A stretch of DNA of 64,000 bases. Origin: Spiroplasma syrphidicola EA-1. Its GTDB lineage: Bacteria; Bacillota_I; Bacilli_A; Mycoplasmatales; Mycoplasmataceae. The stretch covers positions 248,001 through 312,000 of the forward strand of contig NC_021284.1 of the NCBI RefSeq assembly GCF_000400955.1, written 5' to 3'. Below are positions 6,393 through 40,586 of the stretch, piece by piece. The notes beneath the pieces are model-generated. The model was not told the origin of the DNA. It made no database searches and saw only the letters and a program-made list of their open reading frames with translations. Numbering within the stretch: the first letter of the stretch is position 1; each line of letters begins with the position of its first letter. The position numbers and the translations under genes are program-made.

Positions 6393-7346
6393 ATGAAACA
6401 ATTTATTAGACCAGAATTTAAATTACAAGCTGAAGATAAGACAAATAATTATGGTAAATTTTTAGTTGAACCATTAGAACGTGGTTTTGGGATAACTTTA
6501 GGTAATGCTATTCGCCGAACACTATTATCCGCAACACCAGGAGCAGCTGTTTTTGCTGTGCGGATTAAAGGGGCATCACATGAATTTACAGCAATCCCAG
6601 GGGTTGTTGAACATGTGACAAAGATTATTTTAAACATTAAAAATTTAGTGTTAATTATCAACCAAGATATTATTCCTGACGGAGAATCAGTAATCTTAAA
6701 AATTTCTTCAACAAAAGAAGGAGAAATTTTAGCAAAAGATATTATTTTACCAGCCGGTGTTGAAGTTGTTAATCCAAGTCTTCATCTTGCAACAATTTCA
6801 AAAGGGGGAAGCTTAGAAATTGAATTACATGCGCGTAATTCACGGGGATATAAATCATTTAATGACAATAAAAAAGAAAAAAAATATGCTGATTTAATTG
6901 TTATTGATTCAAATTATTCACCAATTCAAAAAGTTTCTTACAAAGTTGAACCAACAAAAGTTGGGAAAAATGCTGATTTAGAAAAATTAGAATTAGAAGT
7001 TCAAACAGATAGTTCAATTACCCCAGTTAATGCGGTGGCAATGGCAGCGAAAGTTTTAACAGAACACTTAGAATTCTTTGTTAACTTAAATGAAGCTATT
7101 AAAGCAACTCAAATTATTTCGTCAGAAACTGAAACAGAAGAAGATGAATTAGATCGTAGTATTGATGAATTAGAGTTTACACAACGTTCACAAAATTGCT
7201 TAAAACGAGCAAAAATTGATACATTACGTGATTTAGTTTCAAAAACAGAAGATGAAATTCAACAAATCCGTAATTTAGGGAAAAAATCATTAACAGAAAT
7301 TAAAGAAAAAGTTGCCCAATTAGGGTTACACTTTAGAAGAGATTAG
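6393..7346 (+). CDS. rpoA: RNA polymerase subunit alpha
   Basis: The 317-residue product has the alpha N-terminal assembly domain ([27 protein letters not shown]) and, from about residue 250, the alpha C-terminal domain with its helix-hairpin-helix DNA-binding motif ([35 protein letters not shown]). It sits between rpsK and rplQ, as in most bacteria. Confidence 0.97.
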
Positions 7347-32705: not shown

Positions 32706-34739
32706 ATGGTTAAAAATGATACAAGTAAAAAACTACAAAAACACCAAAATTTTGAAGTTTCTAATTTAAGATTATGAGGAGATAATCCAAGATATACTAA
32801 TTTTAAAAATGTAAAAATATTAGATATTGGAAAACAAGATTATGAAATACAATCACAAAAAGACATATATAATATTAATTTAATAAACTCATATAAAATG
32901 CTTTGTGATAACAGTCAAAAAATAAAAAAATTGTATGAATTAGTTGAAAATATAATAAAAGGTGGTTTTGATACAGACGCGGATGAAATATTAGTTACAC
33001 TTTCGCCAGAGTTAATAAAAATAGATGGGATTAAATATCAGGATACTTATTATGTTTTAGAAGGGAATAGGAGATTATTTGCTATTCACTTAATAAATGA
33101 TTTTAATAGAGCTAGAGAAGTTTTAAAAAGAGAAATTGGAGAAGTAGCATATAAAAATTTTGAAAAATTATTTTATTCTATAAAGGAAAGTATAATAAAT
33201 ATTGAGTGTAAAATTTTTAATGTATTAGAAAAAGGAGAAAAGCATACTTGAAAAACTTTAAATTCTCGTCATTTTGGAAATAGAAAGGGAAAATTAAATT
33301 GGCCAAGAGGTACTGTATTAAATATTATCGATACAAAGGTTAGAGACTTTAGAAAAGATAATTTTATAGATGATAATTTGGAAATTTCTCAAGAGCAATA
33401 TGACAATATGATTATTGAACTTGAATCTTATACAGGGAAAAAAATCTCACAAATAGATTTGTTAAGTGCACTTTGATCAACAACTGTAATAAAAATTTAT
33501 AATTCTAATTCAAAATCAAAAGAAATTACTTTTGAAAATACTGATGAGGAATTGGAAAGTAGACAAGAAGATTCAAATTATTCTAATGAAAAAACAGAAA
33601 CAGATAAAAAATTGTTTTCAATATCGTCATTAGAGCTAGCACCAAATACTATTAAAATTATTAATGATATTGGAGAAGCAGAAACATTAAAAGAAAAAAT
33701 CTCATTATTAATTAATCCTAAAAAATGGACAGTGGAACACTCACTTTCAAAAGAAATTTGAAAGAATTTAGCTATATATTTGGTAGAAGCAATTAAAAAT
33801 AAAAAATTAAATACTAGAGTTTTTAAGGAAGAATATGCCACTGAATTATTAAGTATATTATCAGAGGACACAAGATTATCAAATAAAACATTGAATACAT
33901 CTAATGATGGGAAAATTAATTTTGATCAAATTACTTTTTTAGGTTTAAAAAATATAAGCGTAGATAATATTAAGTTTGCTACAAAAGAAGAAAAAATAAT
34001 TTATGATCAGTTTATTAATTTAATGCCTGAAGTTGATGATATTATAAAGTTAATATTATTTTTAGATTCAAAATTAAGTAATATTACAAATAAATATATT
34101 TATTCTTTATTATATGTCTGATGTAAAGAATTTAAGCCCCTTATTTTAAGCAAATCATATTTGCAACCTATTCACTATCCTTATTTTAGTATTGCCTCCT
34201 TATTACGCTCAACGAGTGAATTGTTATGTAATTTATGAGTTATACTAGACTTAGATATTCAAAATATGGCGTTGGAAGAGTTTTCGAAAAAAGCAGGAAA
34301 ATACAAAATTAAAACTTTTAATCATATTTTTGAACAAATTAAAAATAATAATTTTAATGAGCATGTATCTGAGCAGTTTTGTAAATATTGTGAGGGTAAA
34401 AAATTTATACAATATATAGATACAACTGATTTAAAATTCAAAATAGCTTTTGAAAAATTCATTATAAATTTAGAAAATTCTAATAATAGTTTTGTAAAAT
34501 CTTTTTATTTAAAATATAAAAAACAAATTGATTTAGAAATTACACAATATGTGACTTATATAAAATGAGCTGAAAATACTGATATTTTAAATAGGCTTAT
34601 TCATAAAAATCATTATATATATGATTTAGTTAATGAAAATATTACTCCATTATTAATTGATGAACTAAAAAAGAATTTTCAAATAATTATTAGAATGCTT
34701 ACTTGATTTAAAATGTTTATTATTGAAAGTGACATTTAA
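32706..34739 (+). CDS. ParB/sulfiredoxin-fold protein of the defence island
   Basis: A 677-residue protein, unusually A+T-rich. The N-terminal part matches the ParB nuclease-like fold: LRLWGDNPRY (residues 21-30) resembles the first conserved motif and YVLEGNRRLFAIHLI (116-130) the G[ED]RR motif with which these proteins bind or cleave nucleotides or DNA. SRHFGNRKG follows. The rest is helical with no domain I recognise, rich in Lys, Asn and Ile. About nine TGA Trp codons. Weak ribosome-binding site. A SPPY-type methylase follows after 33 bases, so they probably act together. Confidence 0.65.
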
Positions 34740-34772
34740 AATTTATTATTTTAAAAATAAAGGAGAACTAAT

Positions 34773-35978
34773 ATGCAATTAGTGAAAGTAAAACTCTTAA
34801 ATAAAAATAAATTTATCTTATTGGAAGAGAAAAATACTTGAAAAAAAAGAGGTCGTCTTTGAGGAGATTGAACTCATAGAATATGTTCTTATGTAGCAAT
34901 GTTTTCACCAGCATTAGCTGAATATTTTATTGACCAGTATGCTCCAAATGATAAGGACATAGTTTTAGATACATTTTCTGGAAGAGGAACAACTTTATTA
35001 CAGGCAAGAATAATGAATAAACAGTCATATGCTGTAGATTTAAATCCGTTTGCATATGTTCTTAGTAGGGCAAAAGCAAAAAGTTTTACTGAAGATAAAA
35101 TAATTAAAAGAATAAAAGAATGAGAGCTAGAATATTTAAAATATAATAATAAATCAGATAATTTAGATGATATTAATCAAGATTTAAAAGTTTATTATAG
35201 TGAAAAAAATTTAAAACAAATGTTATTTATCAAAAAAACATATGGTGAAAATTTTGCTAATTTAACAGATGAAGATAATTTTATTTTGGCAATTACATTA
35301 GGCATTATGCATGGGCCAATGAGAAAAAATGGAGAAAGTATTTATCTATCTTTAAGCATGAGTAATCATACTTCTATGGCAGTAAATTATGTAAAAAATT
35401 ATGCATTAAAACATAATTTAACAAAGCCAGAAGATAATGTTTTTGAAAAAATATGTAATAGAGCTAGATATATCTTTAAAAAATCTGATTTTTTTGATAA
35501 TGAAGCTCATGTTAAATTAGGTAATGCATTAAACATTTCAGAATATTTTAATATTACTCCTAAATTAGTTTTTACATCACCACCATATTTAAATATAATA
35601 AACTATACTCAGCAAAACTGGTTAAAAATGTGAATGCTTGGTTTTAATAATAAAGACGATAACAAAAAAATTAAATTAGATGATAATCATAATATTAATG
35701 AGTATAAAAATTTTATGTTACAGTATTTGAGTAATATTTCACAGATATGTGATAAAGAATCAACAATTGTATTGGTTATTGGTGATGTAAAAAAAACAAA
35801 TAAACTTGAATATTCTTTTGAAAATATATGAAAAGACTATCAACACTTATCAGATTTAGAATTAATTAGAATTTATGAAGATACAATTAACCAAAAACTT
35901 AAAGCAACAAATTCAATGGGTGATAGATCAGGAAAGGCTACCAGAGTTGATAAAATATATGTTTTTAAGAAAAAATAG
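34773..35978 (+). CDS. DNA methyltransferase, TSPPY (N4-cytosine/N6-adenine) type
   Basis: A 401-residue Rossmann methyltransferase that modifies an exocyclic amino group. The SAM motif is DTFSGRGTT (residues 66-74), followed by an acidic AVDLNP loop, and the catalytic motif TSPPYLN is at 268-274. Motif I precedes the catalytic motif; the target recognition region probably lies between them. No restriction endonuclease adjoins it; the ParB-like protein upstream is the only obvious partner. AAAGGAG precedes the ATG. Confidence 0.85.
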
Positions 35979-36021: not shown

Positions 36022-36663
36022 ATGGGTTCCAAATATTATCGAGAAAAAGCAAGACAAAGATTTAAAAATAAATCATTCACAAATGATTCTATTGAATTAA
36101 TTGCACTATCTATAGATATTAGAAGATCAACGCAAATGCCATTTTTATTAACTAAAGAAGAAACAGTTGAAATAGTAAAACCATTTATTGAGGAATGCTA
36201 TATTCTTCTACAGTCTAGAACCATTTTTAATAATTTTATTTACGCAGGTGATGGAGTAATTGCAGTAGCGCATGTTAACAATAATAAAGACATTTTTAAT
36301 GAAACATTTGATGCGGCAATAGATATTAATACTTATTTAAGAGATTATAGAAAATGAGTTAAAAAAATGTATAATTATCATTTTGATGTGGGTATTGGTA
36401 TTACTTATGATAATAACACATATCGTGAATATATAAAAAATATGCCTAATAGTTATAATAATGTGCTATATATTGGAGGTGCAATATCTAAGGCAACAAA
36501 ATTATCGGGTATAACCCCCAAAAACATAAAAGGAGAAAAATGTTATATTAGTGCTTCAAAAGAATTTAGAAAATTTTTAAGTGAGGAAAACAAAAGATTT
36601 ATTAAACTAAAAAACTCTAAGGGAACAGTTTACTATTCTAGTACATTTTGAAAAGAAGATTAA
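36022..36663 (+). CDS. pycC: Class III nucleotide cyclase, Pycsar-type
   Basis: A 213-residue stand-alone cyclase domain. LSIDIRRSTQ (metal Asp32) and YAGDGVIAV (second metal Asp77) are the two metal motifs of class III adenylate/guanylate cyclases, and FDVGIGITY is the next core strand. In IGGAISKATKLSG the usual catalytic Asn...Arg pair appears as Ser and Lys, in keeping with divergent cyclases. With a small membrane effector 21 bases downstream this matches the two-gene Pycsar antiphage design, in which infection triggers cCMP or cUMP synthesis. The nucleotide made cannot be told from sequence alone. Confidence 0.75.
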
Positions 36664-36684
36664 TAATTTTAAAGGAGAAATATA

Positions 36685-37242
36685 ATGATAAATAAGAATG
36701 AAAAAATAATTGATTTGGATATTATTTTTGAAAATAATAGGAAAATTAGTAATTATGCTGAAACAAAAAGTTATTATGCTTTAGTGTTATTAGGTCTTTT
36801 ATCTGTTCCATTATTTACTTTATTTGTTGAAATGTTAAATTTGAAATTATTTAATTTTTGATATAACAAATTATTGTTTATTTTTTCCCTGATATTATTA
36901 GTTTTATCTTTTTTTTCTTTAATATTTTCTTTTATTCCAAGAATAGTTATTAAATCAAAAAAGCAAAGAAAAAATATTGTCGAAGTATCAAATGCTTTTA
37001 AGAATGATTATTATCATTATCAATTTTGATCTGATATTAAATATTTTAATTTATTAGAAATCGAAAATTTTCTTAGTAGTTTAAAAATTGAAGTAATAGG
37101 TAATATTAATTTATTAAGTCAGATTATAAACCTTGCATGAATTGCAAAAATAAAATTTAGAGCTTTTAATATAAGTATTATTTTACAAATGTTATTAATT
37201 ATTACAATGATTGCTTTATCAATAATATTAATATTGACTTAA
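36685..37242 (+). CDS. Pycsar-type transmembrane effector
   Basis: A 185-residue membrane protein. NRKISNYAETKSYYALVLLG (residues 18-37) resembles the ISYADTKA..L motif at the start of Pycsar membrane effectors. Hydrophobic helices lie at about 31-50, 62-84 and 162-184, with a cytoplasmic stretch of about 75 residues between the second and third. By analogy, the cyclic pyrimidine nucleotide binds the protein, which then damages the cell membrane to stop infection. In a wall-less cell that membrane is the only envelope. AAAGGAGAAA precedes the ATG. Confidence 0.68.
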
Positions 37243-37266: not shown

Positions 37267-37587
37267 ATGTCAAGTAAAAGTAAAAATAGAAGAGAAAACG
37301 AATGGCAAAGTGCCTGATTAAATACTGATAATTGCAATTGCCCTGACAAGGAAAGCCATTCAAAAGATTTACATAAAATCTGTTCTATTTGCAAAGGCAT
37401 TATGCATAAGGATGTTAGAATTAATTTAAATTCTAATTTACTTCATCATTTTGCATGAAATAAAGATAATTCTAAACCAAAAGCGAATGGAGGTACTAAT
37501 AGAAAAGATAATTTAGTTGCTATGCATCCATGATGTAATCAAGAAAAAATTCAATTTAGTTTTTGAAAAATTAATATAATTTTGTAG
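37267..37587 (+). CDS. Small HNH endonuclease-like protein
   Basis: A 106-residue protein with a zinc-type HNH signature: CSIC at about residue 42, LLHHFAWNKDN, GGTNRKDNLVAMHPWCNQEK. The HH..N(x)H..CN..K pattern matches compact HNH nucleases and McrA-like domains. It follows the membrane effector by 24 bases with AAAGGAG, so it may belong to the same operon, but it could equally be a separate defence gene. It ends 45 bases before the promoter of the small RNA described next. Confidence 0.65.
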
Positions 37588-37632: not shown

Positions 37633-37660
37633 TTGTGTTTTTAAAATAAAATGTTAATAT
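37633..37660 (+). promoter_or_regulatory. Promoter of the tracrRNA-like gene
   Basis: TTGTGT, 16 bases, TAATAT, with an extended TG one base before the -10 (TGTTAATAT). Predicted start near 37667. Confidence 0.6.
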
Positions 37661-37666
37661 ATTTAT

Positions 37667-37750
37667 AAGAAAGTATAGCTTTCTTGCTAGTTACTGACAA
37701 ATTGGAGAAGATTAGTACAACAAAGTAAAGTGATGAACTTTACTTTTTTT
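37667..37750 (+). ncRNA. tracrRNA-like small RNA with anti-repeat
   Basis: A predicted RNA of about 82 nt. It opens with the hairpin AAGAAAG-TATAG-CTTTCTT (37667-37685). Next, 37695-37718 is a 24-nt anti-repeat whose complement matches repeat positions 1-24 at 22 of 24 bases. Both differences are transitions that keep pairing as G-U wobbles (U opposite repeat G7, G opposite repeat U4). It ends with the terminator stem AAGTAAAG, TGATGAA loop, CTTTACTT and a T run. Anti-repeat followed by a terminator is the plan of type II tracrRNAs, although the tail here is very short. It could instead be a stray repeat unit, but the pairing-preserving changes argue against that. Confidence 0.75.
37723..37750 (+). 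terminator. Terminator of the tracrRNA-like gene
   Basis: AAGTAAAG, seven-base loop, CTTTACTT, then seven T. Eight-base-pair perfect stem. Confidence 0.88.
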
Positions 37751-37760
37751 ATTTTTCATG

Positions 37761-37829: not shown

Positions 37830-38963
37830 ATGATTAATAAATTAGAACCAAAATTAATTTTTTCATTTGGGGTAAATATCCTTAATAAAGAACAAAAAAA
37901 TACTGTTAATACTAATACTAGCTTGCTCAATGAACTAGAAATATTAAAAAATTTTTTACATTCTTCTCTTAATGTAAAAATAAAACTAAATGAGATTGTT
38001 AGTAAAAAGGGTGCACAGCATTATAATTTTTCATTTAAAAAATGATTTTCTTCGGATAAAGACTTAAAATTTTTACGTAACAATAATTTTTTAGAATTTA
38101 ATTACTTTTTTTCAGAAGAACAACAAAAGAATATAAGTTCATGACTGGACTTAATACGAAATATTATTGCTGATGGATATAAAAAAATTATTATAAATGA
38201 CAAAGAAGTTCAAAAATATAAAGAAATAGGTATGGAAGAAATAATTATTTTTCTTTTCATAATTTTAAAAAATCAGGGAAAAATTAAACGAATTATTAAA
38301 TTAATTAATGAGTTTTTCTTATTTACTAAAATCGGAGATGAAGATATTGAAGAAATTAATAAATTGGTTTTTTTAACTGTTAAAAAAAATTTTGGATTAA
38401 ATGATGATGATCATAATAAAATAAGTGTAAAAAAATTAAAAAATTTATATTTATTTAATAAAGATATTATTGGGAAAAATAACTTGCCAAATAAAAAAAT
38501 TAAGAAAATAGAAACTATAACTAATGTTTTATACGCTCAAATTAAAACAATCAATAACAATGTAAAAAGTCAAAAATATTTTTTTGAAGAAATTTTTAAT
38601 TTTGAGTTAAATGACTTAAAATGAAATAATATGTTCCATTTTAGTGATGTATTAATTGTTTGATTAAACAACTATTTTGGGAAACAACCAAAAGGAGAAA
38701 ATGGGAGATTTGTTTATAAAAATATTTTAAGTACATTAGAAGTTAGAGCAAATTTTGATGAAAAAGAAACACCCAGGGGAAATAAAAAATATATTAATCT
38801 GTTTTTTAAAAATAAAAATAATCTTAAAAATAATTTATTAATAAAACTAGAAAATACTAGAGCTGATATTTTATATTTAGTTTTATGACTTAAAGTTATT
38901 GGTTTATCAAGATTAAAATTTTTTTTAGATTTTAGTCAATTAGAAATTGATGAAAAAAAATAA
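37830..38963 (+). CDS. HEPN CRISPR effector candidate, N-terminal part (frame 1)
   Basis: 377 codons from ATG 37830 (AGAAAGG site 12 bases upstream; a TTG at 37818 is an alternative) to TAA 38961. Extremely Lys/Asn/Ile/Phe-rich. I find no RuvC, HNH or other DNase motif. One segment, LIRNIIADG (Arg110 to Asp115), looks like a HEPN R-N-x3-H motif whose His is Asp; Cas13b proteins carry their first HEPN motif near this position, but this is only suggestive. The gene ends inside GAA-AAA-AAA-TAA: the A8 run forms an A-AAA-AAA slippery heptamer, and a -1 shift joins it to the next reading frame, giving a protein of about 725 residues. Confidence 0.65.
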
Positions 38964-40006
38964 ATAAAGTTTATCGTTGAGAAAATTTTACAGAAATAAC
39001 AACAAAAATTCAACAGTTTTGAAAAAGAAATCAAAACATTAATGCGTATGGATATAATATAGCCTTAAATAAGGGCAATGAAAATATACTAGTTACAGAT
39101 GCAATAACTGTTGTAACAAATAATAACATAATCGAATTATTAAAAGATAATAATTTCAATAACAGTATTTTAAAAAGCGATGCTTTATATATTAGCGAAA
39201 TGCAAGAAACAATTAATTTTTTTAATAATTTAGATGAAATATTCAATCAATTTGTTCAGGGGATATTAGGTGATGAACTAATTGATGATATTAGAAAAAA
39301 GGCTAAAAGTGAATCAAATTTAAAATTAAAAAATTTTGCTGAAGTGTATATATTAGTTAGAAATGAAATTTCCCATTACAGTTTTTTTGGTACTTTTATT
39401 AGAAAAGACAACGTATTAAAATCAAAAATTAATAAAAATTTTGAAGAATTATTAAAAAATAAATCAGATTATATTAATAAACTTTTATTTAAATATAATA
39501 ATAAAAAAAATCTAATCTATAAAAATGAAGTTAATGATGAACTTATTAAAAAAATTAATACCAAAGAGTTTGAATATTTAAAGGCAATTATTATGTTTTT
39601 ATACTATATTTATGATTATGGAAATAACAAATTTAAAATTAAAGATGACAATTTATTGAGGCATTTAGAAAAATTTAAAAATCATGAAACTAAGAATTAC
39701 TATCATTATTTTTTATTAAGAGTTAATAATTTATTTATTTCATTGTATAATTTGTTTAAAAATTATTTTTCAATAAATAGAGTTAAAATATGTGAAGAAA
39801 ATATAAAAAACTATGATTCGTTAAATTTATTTAATGAATTTAAATTAAATTTAATTTATAAAAATAATCAAAATAAAATTATACTAGATCAAAATAAAAT
39901 GTTAAAATATGTTTATAAAGATTTTTTTTATACTGTTTCTGACAAAAAAGCTATTAAAGAAATTTTAAAATTATTTTATGAAATCTTTAGTATTTCAGTA
40001 AAATAA
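38960..40006 (+). CDS. HEPN CRISPR effector candidate, C-terminal part (frame 2)
   Basis: 348 codons continuing in the -1 frame from the A8 run to TAA at 40004-40006. The first in-frame ATG is at 39200, with no good ribosome-binding site and 80 homologous-looking codons before it, so it is probably reached by frameshift or slippage, or the split reflects a sequencing or mutational indel. It holds a canonical HEPN ribonuclease motif in EVYILVRNEISHYSFFG: Arg511, Asn512 and His516 of the joined protein, the same R-N-x3-H-Y form as Cas13 HEPN domains. Only one intact motif is present, so activity would need dimerisation or a diverged second site. The stop lies 16 bases before the first CRISPR repeat. 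Confidence 0.7.
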
Positions 40007-40022
40007 GTTCTTTATTTTTGAG

Positions 40023-40586
40023 GTATTAGTCTTCTCCAATTTGTCAGGAAACAACAGCTAATTTTTAAACTAATACCAATAGTCATATGTATTAGTCTTC
40101 TCCAATTTGTCAGGAAACAACAGCTTCGCACATTTTAGCGTCTTCTTGTTCTTGGTATTAGTCTTCTCCAATTTGTCAGGAAACAACAGCATAATTTGAC
40201 AATTTTTATCACAACTACTAGTATTAGTCTTCTCCAATTTGTCAGGAAACAACAGCCAGTTATTGTATATCTATCTCCATAAAAATGTATTAGTCTTCTC
40301 CAATTTGTCAGGAAACAACAGCAATTGTCTTTTAATGTCGTTTATAAATTCTGTATTAGTCTTCTCCAATTTGTCAGGAAACAACAGCTTTTTAAAATCA
40401 ATATCAGTTTCACAAGCAGTATTAGTCTTCTCCAATTTGTCAGGAAACAACAGCCAATGTAGCACCATCTAGAACATTACGCCCGTATTAGTCTTCTCCA
40501 ATTTGTCAGGAAACAACAGCATCACCATACATATAACTTCCTTGTTTAAGGTATTAGTCTTCTCCAATTTGTCAGGAAAATTTAGA
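40023..40586 (+). CRISPR. CRISPR array: nine 36-bp repeats, eight 30-bp spacers
   Basis: Strict 66-bp period. Repeats start at 40023, 40089, 40155, 40221, 40287, 40353, 40419, 40485 and 40551. The repeat begins GTATTAGTCTTCTCC and ends GGAAACAACAGC. The first eight are identical; the ninth matches for 29 bases, then diverges, as leader-distal repeats do, which suggests + strand orientation. Repeat and spacer lengths, the GTnTTAG start and the CAAnAnC end recall type II repeats of mollicutes. All eight spacers differ. No cas1 or cas2 nearby. A TATAAT on the minus strand at 40608-40613 leaves minus-strand transcription possible. Confidence 0.97.

Follow-up and report, generated by a model that had tools for sequence, protein, structure and literature searches.

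A candidate tracrRNA-dependent HEPN CRISPR locus in Spiroplasma syrphidicola EA-1

Can a single-effector CRISPR (clustered regularly interspaced short palindromic repeats) system that targets RNA be guided by a dual RNA? Trans-activating CRISPR RNAs (tracrRNAs) have so far been described from type II and part of type V alone, and the described Cas13 enzymes read the hairpin of the repeat itself. The question is raised by a locus of Spiroplasma syrphidicola EA-1, located in a stretch of 64,000 nucleotides (nt) (NC_021284.1, positions 248,001 to 312,000; hereafter the window, in whose coordinates positions are given) of a genome of 1,107,344 bases. There, a tracrRNA-like gene, a gene for a protein of ~725 residues with a HEPN motif, and a CRISPR array follow one another on the forward strand. 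In the reading examined here, which is given a probability of about 0.48, these elements together make up a single minimal class 2 CRISPR-Cas locus, which targets RNA and depends on the adaptation machinery of a type II-A locus acting in trans.

The RNA gene and its anti-repeat

The following features make up the RNA gene:

37633-37660, + strand: promoter-like hexamers, TTGTGT (37633-37638) and, after a spacing of 16 nt, an extended -10 element, TGTTAATAT
37667-37752, + strand: tracrRNA-like RNA, predicted at ~80-85 nt from the geometry of promoter, anti-repeat and terminator
37666-37686, + strand: 5′ hairpin of the RNA, 9 base pairs (bp), from the fold (z -2.1 against shuffles)
37694-37718, + strand: anti-repeat, 25 nt, pairing to repeat positions 1-25 with 23 Watson-Crick and 2 G-U pairs
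37722-37750, + strand: intrinsic terminator, a 10-bp stem at 37722-37746 and then a U run (z -3.3)

The tracrRNA-like gene is genuine. The promoter, 5′ hairpin, anti-repeat and terminator listed in the initial annotation are all found where it placed them, the promoter being a weak match. Its extended -10 reads TG-T-TAATAT at 37652-37660, and the hexamers match the consensus at 4/6 and 4/6 bases plus the TG, under the threshold of the promoter scanner. For the terminator hairpin, none of 200 shuffles is equally stable. The anti-repeat had been described as 24 nt long with 22 matches; the site is real and slightly longer, with 25 uninterrupted pairs followed by small internal loops and an imperfect extension towards the 3′ end of the repeat. 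The predicted energy of the duplex is -42.5 kcal/mol. The ungapped match scores 19, compared with a maximum of 17 among 200 dinucleotide-shuffled windows (fitted P ~6e-5 per window) and with 12 for the runner-up among the antisense sites of the window, and it is the sole antisense match to the repeat at up to 3 mismatches across the 1.107-Mb genome. Selection for the duplex had also been argued from the two mismatches. Both indeed pair as G-U, but the argument carries little weight alone, because ~1 in 9 random substitution pairs would keep both pairings.

A 2019 survey of Mollicutes (PMC6882279) listed for S. syrphidicola EA1 a second CRISPR locus with 9 repeats, 8 spacers and a putative tracrRNA, and with no cas gene. 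It is the same locus, for which the intervening gene is proposed here as the effector, with evidence from spacer orientation and the leader. The tracrRNA and the array were thus already noted. Within the searchable literature, which excludes subscription papers and preprints, the new elements are the proposal of the HEPN-motif gene as the effector and the evidence from the leader and from spacer orientation.

The intervening gene, the array and the resident type II-A locus

Downstream of the terminator lie the putative effector gene and the array, in which the open reading frames (ORFs) are read with genetic code table 4:

37830-38963, + strand: putative effector gene, 5′ part, an ORF of 377 codons without a family match
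38948-40006, + strand: putative effector gene, 3′ part, an ORF of 352 open codons and a stop
38953-38960, + strand: A8 tract, site of the frame break between the two ORFs, from the three-frame translation and the list of A runs
38157-38174, + strand: codons of a degenerate HEPN-like motif, RNIIAD (R110-D115, D replacing the histidine), from the motif scan
39359-39376, + strand: HEPN R-x4-H motif, RNEISH (R510-H515), extended motif shuffle P 4.5e-4
40007-40022, + strand: leader end of the array, closing with TATTTTTGAG, near the type II-A leader motif ATTTGAG
40023-40579, + strand: CRISPR array, 8 identical 36-nt repeats and a ninth cut to 29 nt, with 8 spacers of 30 nt

Joined at the A8 tract, the two overlapping ORFs would give a protein of ~725 residues with HEPN-like motifs at residues ~110 and ~510. 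The stretch LVRNEISHY fits an extended HEPN signature (P 4.5e-4, residue shuffling), LIRNIIADGY fits it apart from the histidine, and two such partial motifs are seen in 6e-4 of residue shuffles; these P values are optimistic, because the signature was composed after the sequence had been seen. Profile searches give no Cas9 match and no RuvC, HNH or bridge-helix match, and no Cas13 or HEPN model is matched in Pfam, NCBIfam, PADLOC or the PDB at E up to 10. The gene is tightly fitted between its neighbours, with ~80 nt from the terminator to its start codon and 16 nt from its stop to the array. This spacing supports one functional unit, and so does the absence from a sister genome of the whole block from the adjacent Pycsar genes to the array.

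An origin of Cas13 from HEPN toxins has been proposed in the literature, one such toxin being AbiF with its associated non-coding RNA. The arrangement could thus be an AbiF-like toxin-antitoxin, in which the upstream RNA is the antitoxin of the HEPN protein and the match to the repeat is secondary. Such an identity is highly improbable. The protein has no match to the Abi_2 domain, the Rfam scan gives no match of note and no abiF RNA, so that both marks of that system are missing, and the anti-repeat of the RNA, 25 bp long, is directed at the neighbouring array.

On its own, the repeat folds into no stable hairpin (minimum free energy -1.3 kcal/mol, z +0.9). Together with the strength of the anti-repeat duplex, this means that a structured handle would need a trans-acting RNA. 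Because the pairing involves the 5′ part of the repeat, the expected CRISPR RNA (crRNA) would have the order spacer-repeat, as in type II and type VI-B. The leader can be placed upstream, beside the effector gene, since the array has its truncated repeat on the distal side and the leader motif on the proximal side. Two further observations concern the repeat. Spacer 1 (window 40022-40078) holds ACTAATACC, the complement of the beginning of repeat 1 (GGTATTAGT); the resulting hairpin may mask repeat 1 from the tracrRNA or may be due to chance, and it can be likened to the leader-repeat hairpins that block extraneous crRNAs (PMC13187072). A lone copy of the repeat (33/36 identical) occurs in another Spiroplasma genome (L023:7783-7818; G011:C1:81782-81817), directly 3′ of the stop of a 74-codon ORF and next to a terminator, with primase and relaxase genes nearby. 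It resembles a solitary repeat unit or RNA anti-CRISPR (PMC10651486), or an array relic; that genome yielded no relative of the effector and no comparable array. Among viral sequences, 17-mer matches to the repeat were rejected as chance, the similarity stopping at the core.

The same genome holds a separate type II-A locus with cas9, cas1, cas2, csn2, an array of a different repeat and its own tracrRNA, longer than and different from that of the HEPN locus. Its csn2 is large and clear (L010:2813-4042, - strand; PADLOC Csn2 E 1.2e-120), and for this reason the resident system is type II-A; csn2 had been reported as undetected and the system classed as II-C (PMC6882279). The sequence before the HEPN-locus array is TTTATTTTTGAG and that before the II-A array is ATAATAAATTTGAG, which gives the leader-repeat junctions TTTTGAG/GTATTAG and ATTTGAG/GTTTTAG, respectively. 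The leader end ATTTGAG at the first repeat, the most frequent one of type II-A loci and needed for adaptation of CRISPR1 in Streptococcus thermophilus (PMC5382924), is therefore present at the HEPN locus in 6/7 bases. Because of this nearness to the motif of the resident array, spacers are probably acquired in trans, and the identical repeat and spacer lengths of the two arrays, with a common period of 66 nt, fit such adaptation.

Could the array and the tracrRNA then serve the resident Cas9 in trans, with the HEPN gene incidental? The II-A locus provides Cas9 together with cas1, cas2 and csn2, and repeat length, spacer length and leader motif are common to both arrays. It is nevertheless very unlikely, as the repeat and tracrRNA are unlike the Cas9 pair along their whole length, the HEPN-locus tracrRNA has the terminator hairpin alone after its anti-repeat, the Cas9 frame is itself broken, and the spacers have the opposite strand bias. 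The different repeat and the different, longer tracrRNA of the Cas9 pair speak for the reading as one minimal HEPN locus.

Spacer orientation and the weight of the evidence

The orientation of the spacers was scored by a codon model trained on ORFs of Spiroplasma and related genomes, which orients ~80% of coding 30-mers correctly. On the crRNA strand, all 8 spacers of the HEPN locus score antisense to coding sequence (summed log-likelihood ratio 27.6; P 0.0013 against random orientation). The base composition of the eight spacers, with G 20 versus C 46 (P 0.002), agrees with this bias. The II-A array of the same genome behaves in the opposite way, with 22/27 spacers scoring in the other direction and 5/27 antisense (Fisher P 5e-5 between the arrays). 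This contrast resembles, by analogy, the one between the VI-B and II-C systems of Flavobacterium columnare, in which all natural VI-B spacers target mRNA, and spacers newly acquired by the II-C array in an acquisition experiment are biased away from it (PMC8092290). In the same species, adaptation of the VI-B array was shown to occur in trans from the type II-C locus (PMC8092290). Along with the RNA gene, the array, the gene order, the HEPN motif and the leader junction, the antisense bias is legible directly in the sequence.

Several observations weigh against the reading as an RNA-targeting HEPN system. The orientation bias is based on just 8 spacers, and other training sets give 6-8 of 8 antisense spacers for the HEPN locus and 5-11 of 27 for the II-A array. 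The bias supports and does not prove RNA targeting, because the DNA-targeting II-A array is biased too. The protospacer search in phages, plasmids and genomes of the genus returned matches at chance level only. The reading frame of the putative effector is broken in this assembly, and the N-terminal HEPN-like motif has lost its histidine, which leaves one complete motif. Cas13 requires two HEPN sites. The protein has no match in Pfam, NCBIfam, PADLOC, PHROGs or the PDB. The search for relatives covered ~1,100 genomes as well as phage, plasmid and viral collections, and gave no related protein in 14 genomes of the genus, 395 of the class, 320 of the order and 392 of the phylum, or in genome contigs, phages, plasmids and viral contigs; no related locus was found in these collections either. 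Weak matches at the order level were rejected, being either a stretch of an ordinary housekeeping protein, apparently TrmFO, or alignments through stop codons. AlphaFold models of the two effector halves, made from single sequences with no alignment, reach a mean confidence score (pLDDT) of 33 and 36 and are unusable for the fold. With no relative and no library match, membership of the protein in HEPN or Cas13 depends on short motifs.

The frame break and the lost histidine also suggest decay, in which the locus was once a tracrRNA-guided HEPN system and is now inactive. The break at the A8 tract, the RNIIAD where RNxxxH is expected and the lack of relatives that would show constraint speak for it. 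Such an end state is rather unlikely, as the break is single and each half stays open for ~350-377 codons despite the AT-rich genome, the repeats are identical and the tracrRNA is intact. Moreover, the resident cas9 is frame-broken at an A9 tract just ahead of its HHAIDA motif (L010 ~6400-6420, - strand; G000:C1 ~1011400), a hint of homopolymer sequencing error or of slippage during transcription. The two breaks are likely to have a shared cause, namely homopolymer error, slippage or phase variation. The HEPN locus may accordingly be rescued by slippage, mis-sequenced or recently inactivated.

The genomic surroundings bear on the remaining alternative. The HEPN locus is part of a defence island flanked by guaA and a permease gene, with the following genes ahead of it:

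32706-35978: PD-Lambda-5_A-like gene and DNA methyltransferase, diverged between two sister genomes
36022-37242: Pycsar pair, PycC cyclase and PycTM effector, just upstream
37267-37587: small HNH-like ORF, 106 codons, between the Pycsar genes and the tracrRNA

The nearest relative, whose DNA is 94% identical at the permease, carries ~300 bp instead of the block that runs from the Pycsar cyclase to the array; in two further relatives guaA directly adjoins the permease. In such an island, with its Pycsar, methyltransferase and HNH genes, an unrelated defence gene with a HEPN motif might have landed between the tracrRNA and the array of a second type II locus that had lost its cas9. The II-A-like leader junction, the position of the tracrRNA upstream with an anti-repeat to the repeat 5′ end, as in type II, and the broken frame are all in line with an orphan remnant of this kind. 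It is unlikely. No cas9 fragment remains in the locus, the one Cas9 match of the genome being at C1:1011408-1013705, and the HEPN gene occupies the cas9 position within the short gaps given above. The repeats are identical with tracrRNA pairing intact, and the spacers are oriented opposite to those of the resident II-A array. The most probable reading is a HEPN CRISPR system that depends on a tracrRNA, acts on RNA and borrows II-A adaptation; it is known from one genome, where it is possibly inactivated.

Proposed mechanism and relation to known types

From these features we infer RNase III processing, formation of a complex, RNA targeting and adaptation in trans. The array would be transcribed on the + strand, perhaps through read-through from the effector gene, and the tracrRNA would anneal to the 5′ 25 nt of every repeat. 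As in type II, host RNase III would then cut the duplex and release a spacer-repeat crRNA to which the tracrRNA stays annealed. The effector would bind this dual RNA, and pairing of the spacer with phage or plasmid mRNA would lead to RNA cleavage by the HEPN site. New spacers would be added in trans by Cas1-Cas2-Csn2 of the separate II-A locus via the shared TTTGAG/GT leader-repeat junction.

The initial annotation had regarded tracrRNA as not required in type VI and its combination with a HEPN effector as new. The first point agrees with the available text of the 2025 classification, in which tracrRNA is mentioned for types II and V only (PMC12669027), and with PMC13187072, where the type VI systems covered have no tracrRNA and process a hairpin of the repeat. 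As to the second, a tracrRNA-type RNA does precede a gene whose HEPN motif is good; the effector part is less secure, with no Cas13 or HEPN model match, a histidine in one motif of two and a broken frame.

Like type II-A, the locus has a tracrRNA upstream of a single effector gene, an anti-repeat to the 5′ half of the repeat, 36-nt repeats, 30-nt spacers and a leader ending in TTTGAG before the repeat. Unlike type II-A, its effector is not Cas9, it contains no cas1, cas2 or csn2, and the tail of its tracrRNA is short, consisting of the terminator hairpin only. With the VI-B Cas13b system of F. columnare (PMC8092290) it shares a HEPN-motif effector, the spacer-repeat polarity, a locus without adaptation genes, spacers antisense to mRNA and a co-resident type II array of opposite bias. 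It differs from VI-B in having a tracrRNA, a hairpin-free repeat and a smaller protein, with its HEPN motifs at residues ~110 and ~510, without sequence similarity to Cas13b models. Another comparison is offered by the RNA-targeting Cas12g of type V-G (PMC10511118). Cas12g is guided by a tracrRNA, and the HEPN locus would have tracrRNA-dependent RNA targeting by a single effector in common with it. Cas12g uses a RuvC nuclease, unlike the putative effector with its HEPN motif and no RuvC match.

By the features compared, the locus appears to belong to neither type VI nor type II and would work as a hybrid. It stands outside type VI because the protein has no similarity to Cas13 profiles or structures and one intact R-x4-H motif instead of two, and because a tracrRNA is present and the repeat forms no hairpin. 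It stands outside type II because the locus has no Cas9, although the anti-repeat to the 5′ part of the repeat is present. A separate class 2 type or subtype is possible, and is proposed only tentatively: a HEPN ribonuclease without sequence kinship to known Cas13, guided by crRNA:tracrRNA and targeting RNA, which would have arisen when a HEPN protein took over the tracrRNA, array and adaptation machinery of type II-A.

If true, CRISPR systems that target RNA would include a previously undescribed type, and RNA-targeting enzymes could adopt dual-RNA guiding. It would also point to a way in which an existing CRISPR locus can receive a different effector. One small genome would then pair a DNA-targeting and a putative RNA-targeting array that share adaptation, in which selection on spacer orientation is directly testable.
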